Shown here: one piece after another, positions 55,765-61,196 of the stretch | How positions within the stretch are numbered: the stretch's first letter is position 1 | Layout of the letters: the number at the start of each line of letters is the position of its first letter | Origin: Sporomusa sphaeroides DSM 2875 | GTDB lineage: Bacteria; Bacillota; Negativicutes; Sporomusales; Sporomusaceae | Reading direction: 5' to 3' | Assembly (NCBI RefSeq): GCF_001941975.2 | Contig: NZ_CP146991.1 | Span: forward strand, 3,221,001-3,285,000 | Length of the DNA stretch: 64,000 nucleotides | Position numbers and translations under genes: made by a program | Notes under the pieces: generated by a model | Seen by the model: only the letters and a program-made list of their open reading frames with translations | What the model was told of the DNA's origin: nothing | The model's database searches: none

Positions 55765-56304
55765 CTAGAATTCCGGCTCAATCAATCCGTATTGGCCATC
55801 TTTACGCCGGTATACAACATTCACTTCTTCTGTTTCCGCATTGGTGAATACGAAAAAGTCGTGATTAATCAAATTCATTTGCATAACCGCTTCATCAACT
55901 GCCATTGGTTTGACGGCAAAGCGCTTGGTTTTAACAATAATATTGGAATCCTCATCATCATTGGCTAAGGCTGCGGCAGGCACCGGTTCTGCCTTGAAAG
56001 TACCGTTTTTAAGGTTACGGGACAATTTCGTCTTATATTTTTCAATTTGCCGTTCCAGCTTATCAATAACTAAGTCAATGGACGCGTACATGTCGGTGGT
56101 AGCTTCTTCGCCGCGTAAGAGTATGCCATTAATCGGTACGGTAACCTCAACAATATGCCTACCCTTGTTAACAGTGAGGATTGCAGTAATTTCTCCCATA
56201 TTGGCACTGTCAAAATACTTGGTAATTTTACCAATGCGTTTTGCGACATGATCTTTTAGTGCCGGTGTAATCTCAATATTTCTTCCTCGTACTGTAATTG
56301 CCAT
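55765..56304 (-). CDS. hpf: Ribosome hibernation promoting factor, long form
   Basis: Dimerises 70S ribosomes into 100S particles in stationary phase. 179 residues: the N-terminal S30AE domain (ITVRGRNIEITPALKDHVAKRIGK by parts, HIVEVTVPINGILLRGEE) and the C-terminal dimerisation domain (VKTKRFAVKPMAVDEAVMQMNLINHDFFVF by parts, VVYRRKDGQYGLIEPEF). This makes it the long HPF of Firmicutes. The ATG at 56304 is placed behind AAGGGGATGG. The longer frame is rejected. A sigma-H consensus promoter lies 35 bp upstream. Confidence 0.95.
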   Translation of the reverse strand: MAITVRGRNIEITPALKDHVAKRIGKITKYFDSANMGEITAILTVNKGRHIVEVTVPINGILLRGEEATTDMYASIDLVIDKLERQIEKYKTKLSRNLKNGTFKAEPVPAAALANDDEDSNIIVKTKRFAVKPMAVDEAVMQMNLINHDFFVFTNAETEEVNVVYRRKDGQYGLIEPEF

Positions 56305-56338
56305 ACTACCCATCCCCTTTCTGGATCCTATATATTTA

Positions 56339-56367
56339 ATATTCCCTATAAAACGTAAAATTCCTGT
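56339..56367 (-). promoter_or_regulatory. Sigma-H-type promoter of hpf
   Basis: On the minus strand ACAGGAATT (56367-56359), an 11-bp spacer, and AGGGAATAT (56347-56339). Both parts match the Bacillus sigma-H consensus RnAGGAWWW-N11/12-RnnGAATWW at every fixed position. In Bacillus the hpf homologue yvyD is transcribed by sigma-H as well as sigma-B. Confidence 0.75.
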
Positions 56368-56471
56368 CCTAATTTGCAATATTTTTTCTGTGTTTTCTAC
56401 AAACTCAGAATCGTGCAAATTGGTAATTATACCCAGGCGAAAACGTATACTTTCTGGCAGACTAAATTAAA

Positions 56472-56499
56472 ACCCGGCAATGTAGTTACATTGCCGGGT
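56472..56499 (-). terminator. Terminator of cspA
   Basis: A 12-bp stem ACCCGGCAATGT/ACATTGCCGGGT with a 4-nt loop, followed on the minus strand by TTTAATTTAG. 12 bp after the cspA stop. Confidence 0.85.
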
Positions 56500-56511
56500 A
56501 TATGTTTATAT

Positions 56512-56712
56512 TTAGTTGCACTTGTATACGTTGCTGGCTTGCGGTCCACGAGCGCCTTCAACGATTTCAAATTCAACTTGCTGGCCTTCATTCAGGGTTT
56601 TGAAACCTTGATCTTGAATAGCCGAGAAGTGTACGAACACGTCGCCGCCATCTTCTCTTTCAATGAATCCGTAACCTTTTTCTGCGCTAAACCATTTAAC
56701 TTTACCAATCAT
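56512..56712 (-). CDS. Cold shock protein, CspA family
   Basis: 66-residue single-stranded RNA/DNA-binding protein: [30 protein letters not shown] contains RNP1 (KGYGFIE) and RNP2 (VFVHF), shown here as motifs within it. It closes with [21 protein letters not shown] chaperone, one of the best-expressed proteins in such genomes. TAGGAGGAG lies seven bases upstream of the ATG at 56712, and the promoter is near-perfect. The leader is short (about 45 nt), so no long cold-shock thermosensor leader is present. Confidence 0.97.
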
Positions 56713-56765
56713 GTGAAACTCCTCCTAAGATAAACTACCGACTGCACTATGCAGCCACAAGAGGA

Positions 56766-56794
56766 AGTATAACATATATTGGCAGCAGTGTCAA
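56766..56794 (-). promoter_or_regulatory. Strong sigma-A-type promoter of cspA
   Basis: A perfect TTGACA (56794-56789), a 17-bp spacer, and TATACT (56771-56766) on the minus strand. It begins two bases after the glnQ stop codon. Confidence 0.88.
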
Positions 56795-56795
56795 T

Positions 56796-57515
56796 TTATA
56801 AAATCTTCGACAAAAAGGCCTGGGTCCGCTCTTCTTTAGCATGCAAAAATACCGCATCAGGCGTGCCTTCTTCCACAATCCGGCCTTCATCCATAAAAAT
56901 GACTCTGTCGCCCACTTCGCGGGCAAAACCCATCTCGTGGGTAACCACCACCATGGTCATGCCTTCATTAGCCAGAGTCTTCATAACATCCAGAACTTCC
57001 TTAATCATTTCCGGGTCAAGTGCCGAGGTAGGCTCATCAAATAACATGACTTTCGGCTTCATGGCAAGCGCCCGGGCAATAGCCACCCGTTGCTGCTGGC
57101 CGCCGGAGAGCTGATCAGGGTAAGCGTCGGCTTTGTCCTCCAGCCCAACCTTTTCCAGCAGGTCGCGGGCGATCTTGTCGGCTTCCGGCTGCGTCAGCTT
57201 ACGGACTTTTACCGGCGCCAAAGCGATATTTTGCAGTACTGTCATATGAGGGAACAGATTGAAGCGCTGAAAAACCATGCCGACTTCTTCCCGGACTTTA
57301 TTGATATTAGCCTCATTAGTGAGGGGAATGCCGTCCACAATGATTTCGCCCTCTGTAGGCTGTTCCAGATAATTCATGCACCGGAGCAGCGTACTCTTGC
57401 CGGAGCCGCTCGGTCCAATAATAACAACAACCTCTTGTTCGCTGATATGGGCATTAACGCCTTTTAGCACATGCAAATTACCAAATTTTTTATGAAGATT
57501 TTTAATGCTTATCAT
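56796..57515 (-). CDS. glnQ: Polar amino-acid ABC transporter, ATP-binding protein
   Basis: 239 residues with Walker [13 protein letters not shown]-loop FQRFNLFPH, signature [15 protein letters not shown], Walker [13 protein letters not shown] and the H-loop THEMGFA, the pattern of the GlnQ/HisP/ArtP group. ATG 57515 follows GGAGGT. A longer frame exists but starts too far from the ribosome site. It overlaps the permease gene by 14 bp. Amino-acid specificity cannot be read from the ATPase. The gene symbol denotes family type only. Confidence 0.93.
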
Positions 57516-58170
57516 CAGTCTTGTACCTCCGCTCAAGATAATCCACAAGGCGGGATATGGTAAAGGTCATAATCAGGTAAATAAAAGCGACAGTCAGCCA
57601 AATTTCAAATGAGCCATAGGTACGGGCAATAATCAGCTGACCGCGCCGGGTAAGCTCTTCAAAACCGATTACCGACACCAGCGAAGAATCCTTAAGCATG
57701 GCAATAAATTCGTTGCCCAAAGGAGGAATAATGCGCTTGAAGGCCTGCGGCAGAATTATGTAGCGCATAGTTTGGGCCCAGGTCATACCTAGCGACCGTC
57801 CGGCTTCTGTTTGTCCTTTGTCAATGGACTGAATCCCTGACCGGAAAATTTCGGCAACATAAGCGCCGCTGTTCACACTGCAGGCCGTAATGGCGGCAAT
57901 AAAAGGATCAATCCGCTGTCCCACCATCAGGGGCAATGCAAAATAAATGAGAAAAATCTGTACCAGCAGTGGTGTACCCCGGATAAAATCCACATATATG
58001 GCAGCCAGCATTTTCACTGGCCATAGGGTTGATAGCCTGGCTATACCGACAAACATACCGATCAAAAGACCAAAGCCGACACTAAGCGCAGTAATCTGCA
58101 CGGTGACACCGGCCCCCATGAGGAGCAAGGGAAACGAGTCAACAATTAAATTAAAATCAAAGTCCAACAT
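57502..58170 (-). CDS. glnP: Polar amino-acid ABC transporter, permease protein
   Basis: 222 residues, with five hydrophobic segments and the family EAA loop ([28 protein letters not shown], by parts [12 protein letters not shown] and [17 protein letters not shown]). It forms the channel with itself (homodimer) or with a partner. No second permease gene is present, so a homodimer is expected. ATG 58170 has AGGG five bases upstream. GTG two codons earlier lies within that ribosome site. Confidence 0.93.
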
Positions 58171-58266
58171 TCTCACCCTTAATAAAAATTAACAAGGTTG
58201 CATAAAAATCACATGTCAATTATATGCGGACATACCATGGGTGTCAATACAATTTTAGACACAAAA

Positions 58267-58373: not shown

Positions 58374-59162
58374 CTATTGGGGAGGCTTTTTGCCAAACCA
58401 TTTCATGTATATTCTTTCATATTCGCCATTTTTCTTCAATGCTTCGATAGCTTTGTTGACTTTTTCAGTTGTCTCGGTGTTTTTCTTGGAGATGGCAATA
58501 CCGTATTCCTCGGAAGTGAGTGGTTCGCCTACAACCTTGGCATCCTTGCCGCCGGCCTGCGCAATATAATATTCGTTAACAGGCAGATCATTAACAACCG
58601 CGTCTACACCGCCTGCCTTCAGCTCCATAAAAGCTTCCGGCGCATTGTTAAACTCACGGATGGTGGCATCTTTAATTTTTTTAGCTTCCATGGCGCCGGT
58701 AGTGCCGATTTGCACGGCAATGCGTTTGCCTTCAAGATCCTTAAACGTCTTTAATGTATCATTATCGACTTTAACAACCATGGACAGACCAGACTTGTAA
58801 TAGGGAGTGGAAAAATCGACTTTCTTCGCCCGCTCGGCAGTAATCGTCATCCCCGAAATCGCAACATCGATATTGCCGGCCTCGAGCGCCGGAATCAGGC
58901 CGTCAAAGCCCATGCTCTGAATTTGCACTTCTACGCCCATTTCCTTGCCGATAGCACGGATCAGGTCCATATCAAAGCCCACATATTCTTTGCTCTTTTC
59001 ATCCTGGAACTCAAACGGTGCAAACGTAGTCTCGGAACCAACCTTAAGCACCTTAGCTTTCGGCGTCTCGGCCGGTTTTGCCGTTTGCTGCCCGCAGCCG
59101 GTTAGACCTGCGGCCAGAAGGAACATAAGGAAAATAGATAAAATACCAACTTTTTTCGGCAC
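58374..59162 (-). CDS. glnH: Polar amino-acid ABC transporter, substrate-binding lipoprotein
   Basis: 262 residues. The signal sequence VGILSIFLMFLLAAGLTGC ends in a lipobox cysteine at about residue 22, so the protein is lipid-anchored. The SBP family 3 domain is recognisable by LKVGSETTFAPFEFQ, YVGFDMDLIRAIGKEMG, VDVAISGMTITAERA (by part AISGMTITAERAKKVDFS) and YGIAISKKN. The ligand is an amino acid; which one is not certain. GTG at 59162 follows GAGGGGG. The leader carries a mini-repeat hairpin. Confidence 0.93.
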   Translation of the reverse strand: MPKKVGILSIFLMFLLAAGLTGCGQQTAKPAETPKAKVLKVGSETTFAPFEFQDEKSKEYVGFDMDLIRAIGKEMGVEVQIQSMGFDGLIPALEAGNIDVAISGMTITAERAKKVDFSTPYYKSGLSMVVKVDNDTLKTFKDLEGKRIAVQIGTTGAMEAKKIKDATIREFNNAPEAFMELKAGGVDAVVNDLPVNEYYIAQAGGKDAKVVGEPLTSEEYGIAISKKNTETTEKVNKAIEALKKNGEYERIYMKWFGKKPPQ

Positions 59163-59198
59163 ACCAATAACCCCCTCTATAATGTACACTTCACGCAA

Positions 59199-59268: not shown

Positions 59269-59403
59269 GTAGTTTGATAATGTATACATGCGCAACCTTT
59301 CGTTGTCCTATCAGGTTAAACAGGAAGTCAAATTGTATACAAAATCAGGTACAAAGCCGTTCAGCTCCGGCGCGTAGTGTAGCTTCATCAGGGGAACGCA
59401 AGA

Positions 59404-59426
59404 AGCCCGGAATCAAATCCCGGGCT
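59404..59426 (-). terminator. Possible terminator of the zinc-ribbon gene
   Basis: A 7-bp stem AGCCCGG/CCGGGCT with a 9-nt loop, followed on the minus strand by TCTTGCG. The T-run is weak, 20 bp after the stop. Confidence 0.45.
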
Positions 59427-59445
59427 GTTACTGCATGTATATGTA

Positions 59446-59742
59446 TTATTGCCCTTTTTGGGCGATAAAGCAGTCACGGCAATAAATCGGACGATCATTG
59501 CGAGGTTTAAATGGAACTTGGGTGGTTACACCGCATTCGGCACATACCGCTTCATGCATTTCCCTGGGAGCTGTCTGTCCTTCACCGCCATCACGGCTGC
59601 GTCTTCTGTTACCCCGACATTCACGACAACGAGCAGGTTCATTTTCAAAACCTTTTTCCGCATAAAACTCCTGCTCCCCAGCTGTAAAAACAAAGTCCTT
59701 TTCACAGTCCTTGCACTTAAGAGTTTTGTCCTGAAAAGCCAT
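59446..59742 (-). CDS. Zinc-ribbon protein with four CxxC motifs
   Basis: 98 residues: MAFQDKTLKCKDCEKDF with CKDC, then CREC in PARCRECRGNRR, a charged linker, CAEC in VCAECGVTTQVPF and CRDC in PIYCRDCF. The first pair belongs to the probable zinc-ribbon domain family and the second to the CxxC small zinc-ribbon family. Each two motifs likely bind one Zn. Function unknown, possibly nucleic-acid binding given the basic linker. AAGGTGAGG lies about 12 bases before the ATG. The gene has an unusually long, structured leader. Confidence 0.88.
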   Translation of the reverse strand: MAFQDKTLKCKDCEKDFVFTAGEQEFYAEKGFENEPARCRECRGNRRRSRDGGEGQTAPREMHEAVCAECGVTTQVPFKPRNDRPIYCRDCFIAQKGQ

Positions 59743-59779
59743 TAACGAAATCCCCTCACCTTATGAATTTAAAAACCAC

Positions 59780-60006
59780 TGCTTAGCCGACCTGGTCTTT
59801 GACCCCACACTCGCCTGCAGGAAGGGTCGCTACTAGGAACTCAATCCCCTCACTACTGCTTCTCTCGATCAAAATATATGTAACTGTTGTTTTACGGACC
59901 GGCAGGACTTACCTCTAAGCCGCACCATGCTCAAAGCCGCTTTGGGCTTCTTACGTGGGTCGTTTCGCCTGCGACTGGCATCGACTTTCAACCACAGACC
60001 TAAGCA
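59780..60006 (-). ncRNA. Candidate structured RNA in the leader of the zinc-ribbon gene
   Basis: The 338-bp gap 59743-60080 has no ORF. The minus-strand transcript from the promoter at 60025-60053 would start near 60018. Its ends pair (TGCTTAG 60006-60000 as CTAAGCA on plus, with 59780-59786). Inside, GACCCAC pairs with GTGGGGTC (59961-59955 with 59808-59801). Local hairpins are seen at 59957-59973 (GTCG/CGAC), 59929-59947 and 59900-59922. The end is followed by GTGGTTTTT. It resembles neither RNase P, tmRNA, SRP RNA nor a riboswitch I know. A 6S-like rod is conceivable. Confidence 0.4.
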
Positions 60007-60024
60007 AATTGGTTCTTATCTTAA

Positions 60025-60053
60025 ATTATAGAATTCCATAAGAAAAAAAGCAA
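60025..60053 (-). promoter_or_regulatory. Promoter of the zinc-ribbon gene or leader RNA
   Basis: TTGCTT (60053-60048), a 17-bp spacer and a perfect TATAAT (60030-60025) on the minus strand. The start codon lies about 275 nt beyond the expected start site. Confidence 0.8.
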
Positions 60054-60080
60054 GCAGATATTTTCAGATTAATATTACCA

Positions 60081-61196
60081 TTAGCATACCAATTTGGCTA
60101 TTTTCAGGCCAGGCTGCTGACTGACATCCAGTATTTTCCCGTCAGAAAACCGGACTAAACAGTTTTCTTTGCCGCTCCGGTTCCAAAAAACCAGCTGCCC
60201 GGTACGTCCATCGCTGAGTGTTACATATCTGCAGATAAGCGTCTGACACAATTCATGCAAAAACGGTGTGCTGTAATCCGGCGAAAACTTGCCGGCGAAC
60301 ATATCGGCCTGGATGGTGTCAATAGCGGCAAAGGGCGATATTTCCTGCCCGTAGGTTTTTTTTGAAGTCATGGCATCATATACATCGGCAATACCAAGCA
60401 CCTTGGCAATAGGATGATTTTTGGCGGCATTGGTATGCAGCGGGTAGCCTGAGCCATCATCACGCTCATGATGCTGCAGGACCCCAAAACGAACACTTTC
60501 CGGAATTTCTTTATACCGGCTGAAAAATTTAAAGGCTATCGCCGGATGCTGACGCACGGCAGCTAACTCGTCCTCTGTCAGTGCGCCATTTTTATACAAT
60601 ACCTTGGACGACACTTCCAGCTTGCCGATATCATGAAGAATACCTGCCAAAATCAGGTTGCGCTGCTGGATTAAACTAAAAACACCGCTTAACTCACCGA
60701 TAATATGAGCTAAGATACCAACATTGACAGAATGATGAACCAAATAATCCTCCGTGCGGGTTAGCGTGTGCAGCAAAGCCGTAGCGGCAATGCCGCGGGA
60801 GGCCAGACGAGCCACCGAGTCAACAAGGGTATCCAGCAAAGCGTAATCCAGGTGCCTTTCCAGTCTGATAAGGGTAAAGCATTTTTTCATATCCTGCACA
60901 CAGCGGCTATAGAGGCCGGAAAATTCGTTTTCCTGCTCCGATACACCGGCAGCCATATCTGGTTCACAATATGCCTCTGCTGCCGGCTCTGGTGCCGCCT
61001 CCGGCGTCAGAACCGTTTGGCGAATGCGAACAGAATCAAGCCCATAATTGAGAATCCGGGCAATTTGCCTTTCTGTAAGTATGGTGCCCGCATGAAGCAA
61101 GCCGCTGCCGTCAGGTGAAAATACCGATTCCCCCAGTTCGAAGCCCGGACGGAGTTGGTGGACAGAACATTTTATAATAGTATAACTTTCAGCCAT
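60081..61196 (-). CDS. HD-GYP domain protein (c-di-GMP phosphodiesterase candidate)
   Basis: 371 residues. The N-terminal 60 residues resemble the short sensory head of many HD-GYP proteins (LRPGFELGESVFSPDGSGLLHAGTILTERQIARI in parts), with a Pro/Ala/Glu-rich linker. The HD-GYP domain covers about 130-310: HHSVNVGILAHIIGE, AGILHDIGKLEV, the HHERDDGSGYP signature, and GIADVYDAMTSKKTYG. All metal-binding residues of the family appear present. The C-terminal 50 residues are beta-rich. ATG 61196 follows GAGGAG. Together with the EAL protein it points to active c-di-GMP turnover. Confidence 0.92.
   Translation of the reverse strand: MAESYTIIKCSVHQLRPGFELGESVFSPDGSGLLHAGTILTERQIARILNYGLDSVRIRQTVLTPEAAPEPAAEAYCEPDMAAGVSEQENEFSGLYSRCVQDMKKCFTLIRLERHLDYALLDTLVDSVARLASRGIAATALLHTLTRTEDYLVHHSVNVGILAHIIGELSGVFSLIQQRNLILAGILHDIGKLEVSSKVLYKNGALTEDELAAVRQHPAIAFKFFSRYKEIPESVRFGVLQHHERDDGSGYPLHTNAAKNHPIAKVLGIADVYDAMTSKKTYGQEISPFAAIDTIQADMFAGKFSPDYSTPFLHELCQTLICRYVTLSDGRTGQLVFWNRSGKENCLVRFSDGKILDVSQQPGLKIAKLVC

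Follow-up and report, generated by a model that had tools for sequence, protein, structure and literature searches.

What is transcribed between the promoter and the small CxxC protein gene at this locus of Sporomusa sphaeroides DSM 2875, and how is it tied to that gene? The locus lies in a stretch of 64,000 nucleotides (the window), and the earlier note had proposed for it an undescribed structured RNA, either a riboswitch-like leader or a free-standing RNA of the 6S type. We found that positions 60008-59778 of the minus strand encode a full-length raiA (ModT) RNA, Rfam family RF03072. The match scored 193.3 bits (E 1.7e-49) in cmscan against a gathering score of 101.3, and a covariance-model search detected one copy in the 5.0-Mb genome. 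The claim that no known class fits therefore fails, because a hit to a known RNA is the very result that the note itself had set against it. 6S RNA is a free-standing structured RNA of ~200 nt. The window RNA has no Rfam 6S match, and in a scan of 59400-60300 raiA was the only family at E ≤ 1. A new class or a 6S RNA, for which the by-eye view of the earlier note was the sole argument, is thus hardly conceivable. The raiA RNA class has already been described; what looks new is its apparent unit with the zinc-finger gene (zf_Tbcl) and a compact variant.

raiA/ModT RNA is abundant and highly structured, and its biochemical job is described as still unknown (PMC11706538, PMC11751092). ModT of C. 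difficile is abundant, stable and trans-acting (PMC11706538), and ModT affects the stationary-phase transition and sporulation (PMC11706538, PMC11477304). Trans action in C. acetobutylicum is cited by PMC11477304. The window RNA agrees with raiA/ModT in sequence, helices P1-P8, pseudoknot pk-1, length class and presence in Bacillota (PMC11751092). Its parts are given below, with helix numbering, pk-1, A33 and P4 following the published cryo-EM structure (PMC11751092).

59778..60008, minus strand: raiA (ModT) RNA, RF03072, 231 nt, model positions 1-209 complete
59781..60005, minus strand: closing helix P1a, 60005-60000 with 59786-59781, GCTTAG/CTAAGC ends
59960..59984, minus strand: hairpin P3 (P3a, P3b), by position match to the published structure
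59918..59924, minus strand: 3' half of pk-1, pairing with 59976-59970
59804..59959, minus strand: helix P4, 59959-59955 with 59808-59804, GACCCAC/GTGGGGTC arms
59814..59906, minus strand: P6-P7-P8 domain, from the Rfam alignment; absent from the compact form found in another order

Mapping onto the published structure places pk-1 in the 7-nt loop of P3 (59976-59970), with A33 as the first loop nucleotide. P4 (CCCAC/GTGGG) was assigned by mapping onto the description of P4/J4-1c in the cryo-EM structure. The P6-P8 domain has helices 8-12 formed and is of the variant-2 type. For pseudoknot pk-2 (2 pairs), the residues C80, U82 and G84 stand at their published numbers, with C80 and G84 invariant, in a comparison of positions only. 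Several by-eye observations of the earlier note find their place in this structure: the pairing ends CTAAGCA/TGCTTAG correspond to helix P1 and the GACCCAC arms to P4 as mapped. Of the repeated words, GCAGGCGA and CGACCC, the minus strand has two copies each.

raiA RNA was found in 53 of 60 related genomes (the window's included), in 50 of them above the cut-off. Alignment A1 comprised 50 full-length RNAs of these 53, aligned without structure; the three damaged ones excluded were those of G003 (at a contig end), G033 (only 105 nt, through an internal deletion) and G058 (interrupted by a stretch of N). Across the 50 relatives, the known structure with pk-1 had standard pairs in 97.8% of 2790 pairing cells and two-sided changes in 21 of 57 pairs. 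The covariation score of 0.221 compared with 0.123 for shuffled and at most 0.081 for slid alignments, and lay above all 500 shuffles. Comparison of the gap in relatives, as suggested earlier, showed it to be conserved. Helices P1a-P1b, P5, P7 and P8 hold 18 of the 21 two-sided pairs (Rfam helices, naming by this analysis). P1a and P1b together had two-sided changes in 6 of 9 pairs, with 100% of cells paired in 49 distinct sequences. pk-1 (7 pairs) was paired in 99.1% of cells, and 6 of the 49 sequences have U-A in place of one of its C-G pairs. P4 was paired in 100% of cells and is nearly invariant; because P1c, P4 and P6 hardly vary, they are outside the reach of covariation. Folding energy alone was uninformative (z = -0.86 for the minus strand and +0.87 for the plus strand), and it is the covariance-model E-value (1.7e-49) together with the covariation that places the RNA beyond chance. 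Note that the 105-nt RNA of G033 (locus L166) has P3 through P7 deleted and retains P8, P1 and zf_Tbcl; this deletion is either real or an assembly error.

In a draw of 398 genomes from the phylum, 47 carried raiA RNA, 36 of them above the cut-off, with search filters that lose some weak matches. Among the 60 relatives, incomplete genomes included, 43 of the 47 that have Spo0A carried the RNA, as did 10 of the 13 lacking Spo0A. Spo0A was therefore rejected as a predictor of the RNA, whose distribution is not accounted for by the loss of sporulation. This agrees with the statement in PMC11706538 that many non-sporulating bacteria have raiA RNA.

Transcription and translation around the RNA involve the following features.

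60025..60053, minus strand: promoter TTGCTT-17-TATAAT (TTGCTT at 60053-60048, spacer of 17 nt, TATAAT at 60030-60025)
59743..59777, minus strand: linker, 35 nt, with ribosome-binding stretch AAGGTGAGGGGATTTCGTTA; terminator absent
59446..59742, minus strand: zf_Tbcl gene, 98 aa, PF13451 and PF23477/TIGR04272, CxxC-x17-CxxC
59404..59426, minus strand: terminator-like hairpin AGCCCGGGATTTGATTCCGGGCT, 3' of zf_Tbcl; T tail poor, four of its 8 bases being T

A promoter TTGCTT-17-TATAAT ~275 nt before a CxxC gene had been noticed before, and it is indeed present on the minus strand; transcription would start near 60018, ~276 nt from the zf_Tbcl ATG at 59742. The view that a structured RNA stands directly before a CxxC zinc-finger gene was likewise correct: RF03072 is followed by PF13451 and PF23477/TIGR04272 (84.4 and 72.4 bits in Pfam, 73.4 bits in NCBIfam). 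A generic sigma-70 scan reported no promoter within 59300-60200, missing this one because TTGCTT fits TTGACA at only 3 of 6 positions. Of 53 related loci, 48 have the motif CTTG[CA]-18/21-TATA[AC]T 5' of the RNA, compared with 26 of 5300 random windows from the same regions; the pattern, which allows A at the fifth base, was chosen after viewing the upstream sequences, and these counts are descriptive.

The spacing between RNA and gene is narrowly kept. zf_Tbcl starts 33-42 nt past the RNA in 43 of the 53 related loci; three have spacings of 66, 66 and 117 nt, and in seven zf_Tbcl was not found there. In the phylum draw, besides the window's own genome, 46 genomes carry the RNA, and 27 of these have zf_Tbcl 33-41 nt past it. 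In the remaining 19, the RNA is followed by a cold-shock gene (csp), a GlnH-like gene, hpf or no recognised gene, G350 having too little sequence; a neighbour call was impossible for G003 and G350. Searching from the gene side, we found raiA upstream of zf_Tbcl in 50 of the best 80 of at least 576 relatives (named genomes), spaced by 33-52 nt in the 47 loci with the start set; two of these 50, L040 and L055, are short, partial matches. The other 30 of the best 80 had no upstream raiA by either RF03072 or the compact model R1 described below, and when R1 was run on these 30 loci and two with the RNA, it matched only the latter two. Three zf_Tbcl paralogues of the window's genome (L031, L032, L034) lie away from its single RNA and have GGAGG-type ribosome-binding sites, unlike the GTGAGGGG stretch of the linker. 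In a zf_Tbcl tree of 117 chosen rows (83 RNA-linked, 33 not, one hairpin), linkage was clustered, with 11 changes versus a shuffled mean of 30.0; this tree used part of the rows, and 56 of its 111 forks are open. Presence of the RNA and of zf_Tbcl was not associated over the 398 genomes of the draw (35/47 vs 230/351, Fisher p = 0.25). zf_Tbcl was unmatched in 12 of the 47 RNA-bearing genomes (G029, G097, G174, G240, G246, G350, G354, G365, G376, G386, G435 and G437). As a separate observation, a strongly diverged 259-nt raiA of 50 bits (L209, G227:C21) lies immediately 5' of zf_Tbcl.

Hairpins that could end transcription are distributed unevenly around the two elements. By the stricter rule, none of 82 loci with zf_Tbcl next had a hairpin past the RNA, whether 60 or 100 nt were considered, and 6 of 22 loci in which zf_Tbcl was not next had one (random windows, 66/1060). 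By the looser rule, the counts were 0/82 versus 10/22 for the first 60 nt and 5/82 (window included) versus 11/22 for 100 nt, all five of the former falling within the zf_Tbcl coding sequence. Note that G029 and G059, present in both sets, were counted once. Past the zf_Tbcl stop, a terminator-like hairpin with T tail was found in 44 of the 45 loci with enough sequence, the window included. In the window, this hairpin (59426-59404) gave z = -3.63 as a 51-nt fold, and a stricter generic terminator scan does not report it. The T-run noted earlier past the closing stem exists here as GGTTTTT directly after P1; as a conserved terminator it was rejected, since only 21 of 53 loci show five T in a row within 15 nt. 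Based on the spacing, the promoter motif, the absence of a hairpin after the RNA and its presence after zf_Tbcl, the arrangement promoter-RNA-zf_Tbcl-terminator looks like one unit at the sequence level. The loci share ancestry, nine of the 53 coming from one genus, and the counts are therefore not independent.

As for the linker region, 40 of 53 loci have GGTGAGGGGAT no more than 130 nt 3' of the RNA, and the word G[TCA]GAGGG occurs in 11 of the 50 RNA-linked loci among the best 80 of at least 576 zf_Tbcl relatives. A switch in which the ribosome-binding stretch GTGAGGGG repeats a P8 strand was considered and dropped, because the word is absent inside the RNA of many relatives and present in only those 11 of 50 linkers, and because compact RNAs without the P8 domain retain the stretch in the linker.

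Downstream of the hairpin, the minus strand carries a further string of genes.

58374..59198, minus strand: SBP_bac_3 amino-acid ABC substrate-binding protein (Pfam)
57502-58176, minus strand: ABC permease, named by eye and clustering
56796-57548, minus strand: ABC ATPase, named by eye and clustering
56512..56712, minus strand: cold-shock protein gene (PF00313, Pfam)
56469-56845, minus strand: cspA-thermoregulator RF01766, 83.8 bits (cut-off 78)
55765..56418, minus strand: raiA/hpf gene (Ribosomal_S30AE, PF02482), 98.6 bits at 56023-56298; start mechanical

The RF01766 match overlies the csp gene, between the ABC transporter and hpf. The order RNA/zf_Tbcl/ABC transporter/csp/hpf recurs in relatives: among 53 regions of limited length, a GlnH-like gene was found downstream in 42, csp in 38 and hpf, on the same strand, in 41, the window among them. 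According to PMC11706538, quoting Soares et al., the common neighbours of raiA RNA are the comFC and raiA genes, and PMC11477304 adds genes for periplasmic-binding proteins. In contrast, the RNA here lies directly 5' of zf_Tbcl, apparently in one unit with it, and raiA/hpf follows only ~3.4 kb downstream on the same strand, beyond zf_Tbcl, the ABC transporter and csp.

We also analyzed the weak matches of the phylum draw. Eleven of the 47 fell below the RF03072 cut-off, at 42-59 bits, and ten of these are RNAs of 113-120 nt in two families. In compact raiA, P1, P3, the GAAAGUCGA turn, the complementarity of the pk-1 loop to a downstream segment and the type of promoter are all retained; P6-P8 are gone, as are two conserved stretches, GUAAGU and GCGAGUGUGGGG. 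R1, a model derived from the ten compact RNAs, was matched by 20 of the 22 genomes of a single order, the ten founders included; the order includes Thermosediminibacter, and the loci are L206-L208 and L210-L233. Nineteen matches are complete (110-121 nt) and the twentieth is partial, truncated where its contig ends. Each of the 19 complete loci has zf_Tbcl 32-41 nt past the compact RNA. Covariation was not detectable in the compact set (0 two-sided pairs; 10 of the 19 tested), and the case for P1 and P3 in the compact form is therefore their invariant sequence, common to these RNAs and raiA. A GCCG/CGGC complementarity for pk-1 is readable in 19 of 19, shuffled segments equalling it in 0.5-54% of cases per sequence. 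At these 19 loci, then, the core of P1, P3 (both by invariant sequence) and pk-1 is retained and P6-P8 is absent. Two genomes of the order had no R1 match. The one inspected, G136 (L235, G136:C43), has a plain 74-nt hairpin before zf_Tbcl and no raiA match, and it retains the promoter motif (by eye) and a similar linker. A search of 4,064 bases there gave no Rfam family above its cut-off.

How the RNA and the gene might work is suggested by these observations together. We consider it likely that raiA RNA is made from its own promoter, is co-transcribed with zf_Tbcl and acts in trans, a reading built on sequence features. The promoter would yield a transcript starting with the 231-nt RNA, reading into zf_Tbcl 35 nt on, with no terminator between, and ending at the hairpin past the gene. 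The RNA folds into the compact raiA structure with P1, P3, P4/P5, pk-1 and P6-P8 and would probably be cut or trimmed out of the shared transcript. Once freed, it would act in trans when the growth phase changes, as its clostridial counterparts do, and the remainder of the transcript would give the zinc-finger protein. Co-transcription and processing are proposed from the arrangement of the locus, and the trans function is carried over by analogy from other species. Against a shared unit, an abundance like that in C. difficile would demand that the transcript be strongly processed or partly terminated; no signal for this was found. The five looser-rule hairpins at loci with zf_Tbcl next, the poor T tail in the window and the shared ancestry of the loci also weigh against it. 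Moreover, the gene reported downstream of ModT in C. difficile is a PTS antiterminator, not zf_Tbcl (PMC11706538).

Alternatively, raiA RNA might be mainly a cis leader of zf_Tbcl, in which the fold, a ligand or a protein controls translation at the ribosome-binding site 15-20 nt behind P1. The short spacing fixed across many families speaks for this, as do the compact RNA before zf_Tbcl in 19 of 19 complete loci, the retention of promoter motif and a 74-nt hairpin in G136, where the RNA match is gone, and the Rfam type of RF03072 ('Cis-reg; riboswitch'). The leader proposed in the earlier note thus fits in placement and spacing, sharing with riboswitch leaders a structured RNA closely upstream of one gene. 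It differs from them in that the linker has no terminator-type expression platform (0/82 hairpins in the 60 nt past the RNA), and trans action has been published for other species (PMC11706538, PMC11477304). Furthermore, 12 of the 47 RNA genomes of the draw are without a zf_Tbcl match, and where zf_Tbcl is not next, a hairpin follows within 100 nt in 11 (looser rule) or 6 (stricter rule) of 22 loci, resembling a free RNA. The G[TCA]GAGGG ribosome-binding stretch is found in only 11 of the 50 RNA-linked loci among the best 80 relatives of at least 576, and PMC11477304 opposes a riboswitch. On balance, we regard a mainly cis-acting leader as rather unlikely.

Returning to the co-transcribed, trans-acting RNA, its neighbour could be a protein partner. 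zf_Tbcl might bind raiA RNA and form an RNP by analogy with OapA and OLE RNA. The genes of OLE RNA and OapA are neighbours, and we know of no relation in sequence or fold between OLE and raiA RNA. OLE, whose particle with OapA is cited in PMC11706538, is also a large structured bacterial RNA working with a small protein, and ModT is reported to show initial evidence of protein association (PMC11706538). Adjacency, the apparent shared unit, conserved spacing and the zinc-finger fold are consistent with such a particle; the absence of a zf_Tbcl match in 12 of 47 RNA genomes and the lack of association in presence (p = 0.25) argue against it, and we think it doubtful. Passive linkage, in which RNA and zf_Tbcl merely share a long conserved gene string, would account for the conservation of that string (GlnH-like gene in 42, csp in 38 and hpf in 41 of 53 regions). 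It would not be expected to hold a gap of 33-42 nt free of terminator-like hairpins and a hairpin past zf_Tbcl in 44 of 45 loci, and we judge it improbable.

The same evidence bears on how closely RNA and protein belong together. An obligate pair is disfavoured by the 12 of 47 RNA genomes without a zf_Tbcl match and by the absence of an association in presence. A link between the two is favoured, because the spacing is fixed, the arrangement looks like a unit, and neither the shrunken RNA nor the plain hairpin has left its place before the gene. Tentatively, raiA RNA and zf_Tbcl may be a functional pair in one unit, the protein serving the RNA or the RNA controlling the protein, with the core pared and the place kept. 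If so, one order would have pared the RNA to a natural core of ~113 nt comprising P1, P3, pk-1 and a P4/P5-like hairpin without P6-P8, and one genome of that order would have reduced it further to a plain hairpin, still before zf_Tbcl. The compact RNA would then be an unreported variant showing which part of raiA this role needs. A conserved neighbour in what appears to be the same unit gives a concrete candidate partner for raiA/ModT, and the naturally halved RNAs show the part of the fold kept by evolution. Among the papers listed in searches of the open literature, to which Soares et al. 2024 (PNAS) did not belong, none joined raiA RNA to the zf_Tbcl family or described the compact form; the novelty of the pairing is unproven.

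Finally, the upstream side of the RNA was compared. Flagellar genes are absent within the 4.0 kb upstream of the RNA in the window. In the relatives at loci L116-L166, the RNA is often preceded by flaG, fliD, fliS and fliT, names assigned from clusters by eye.
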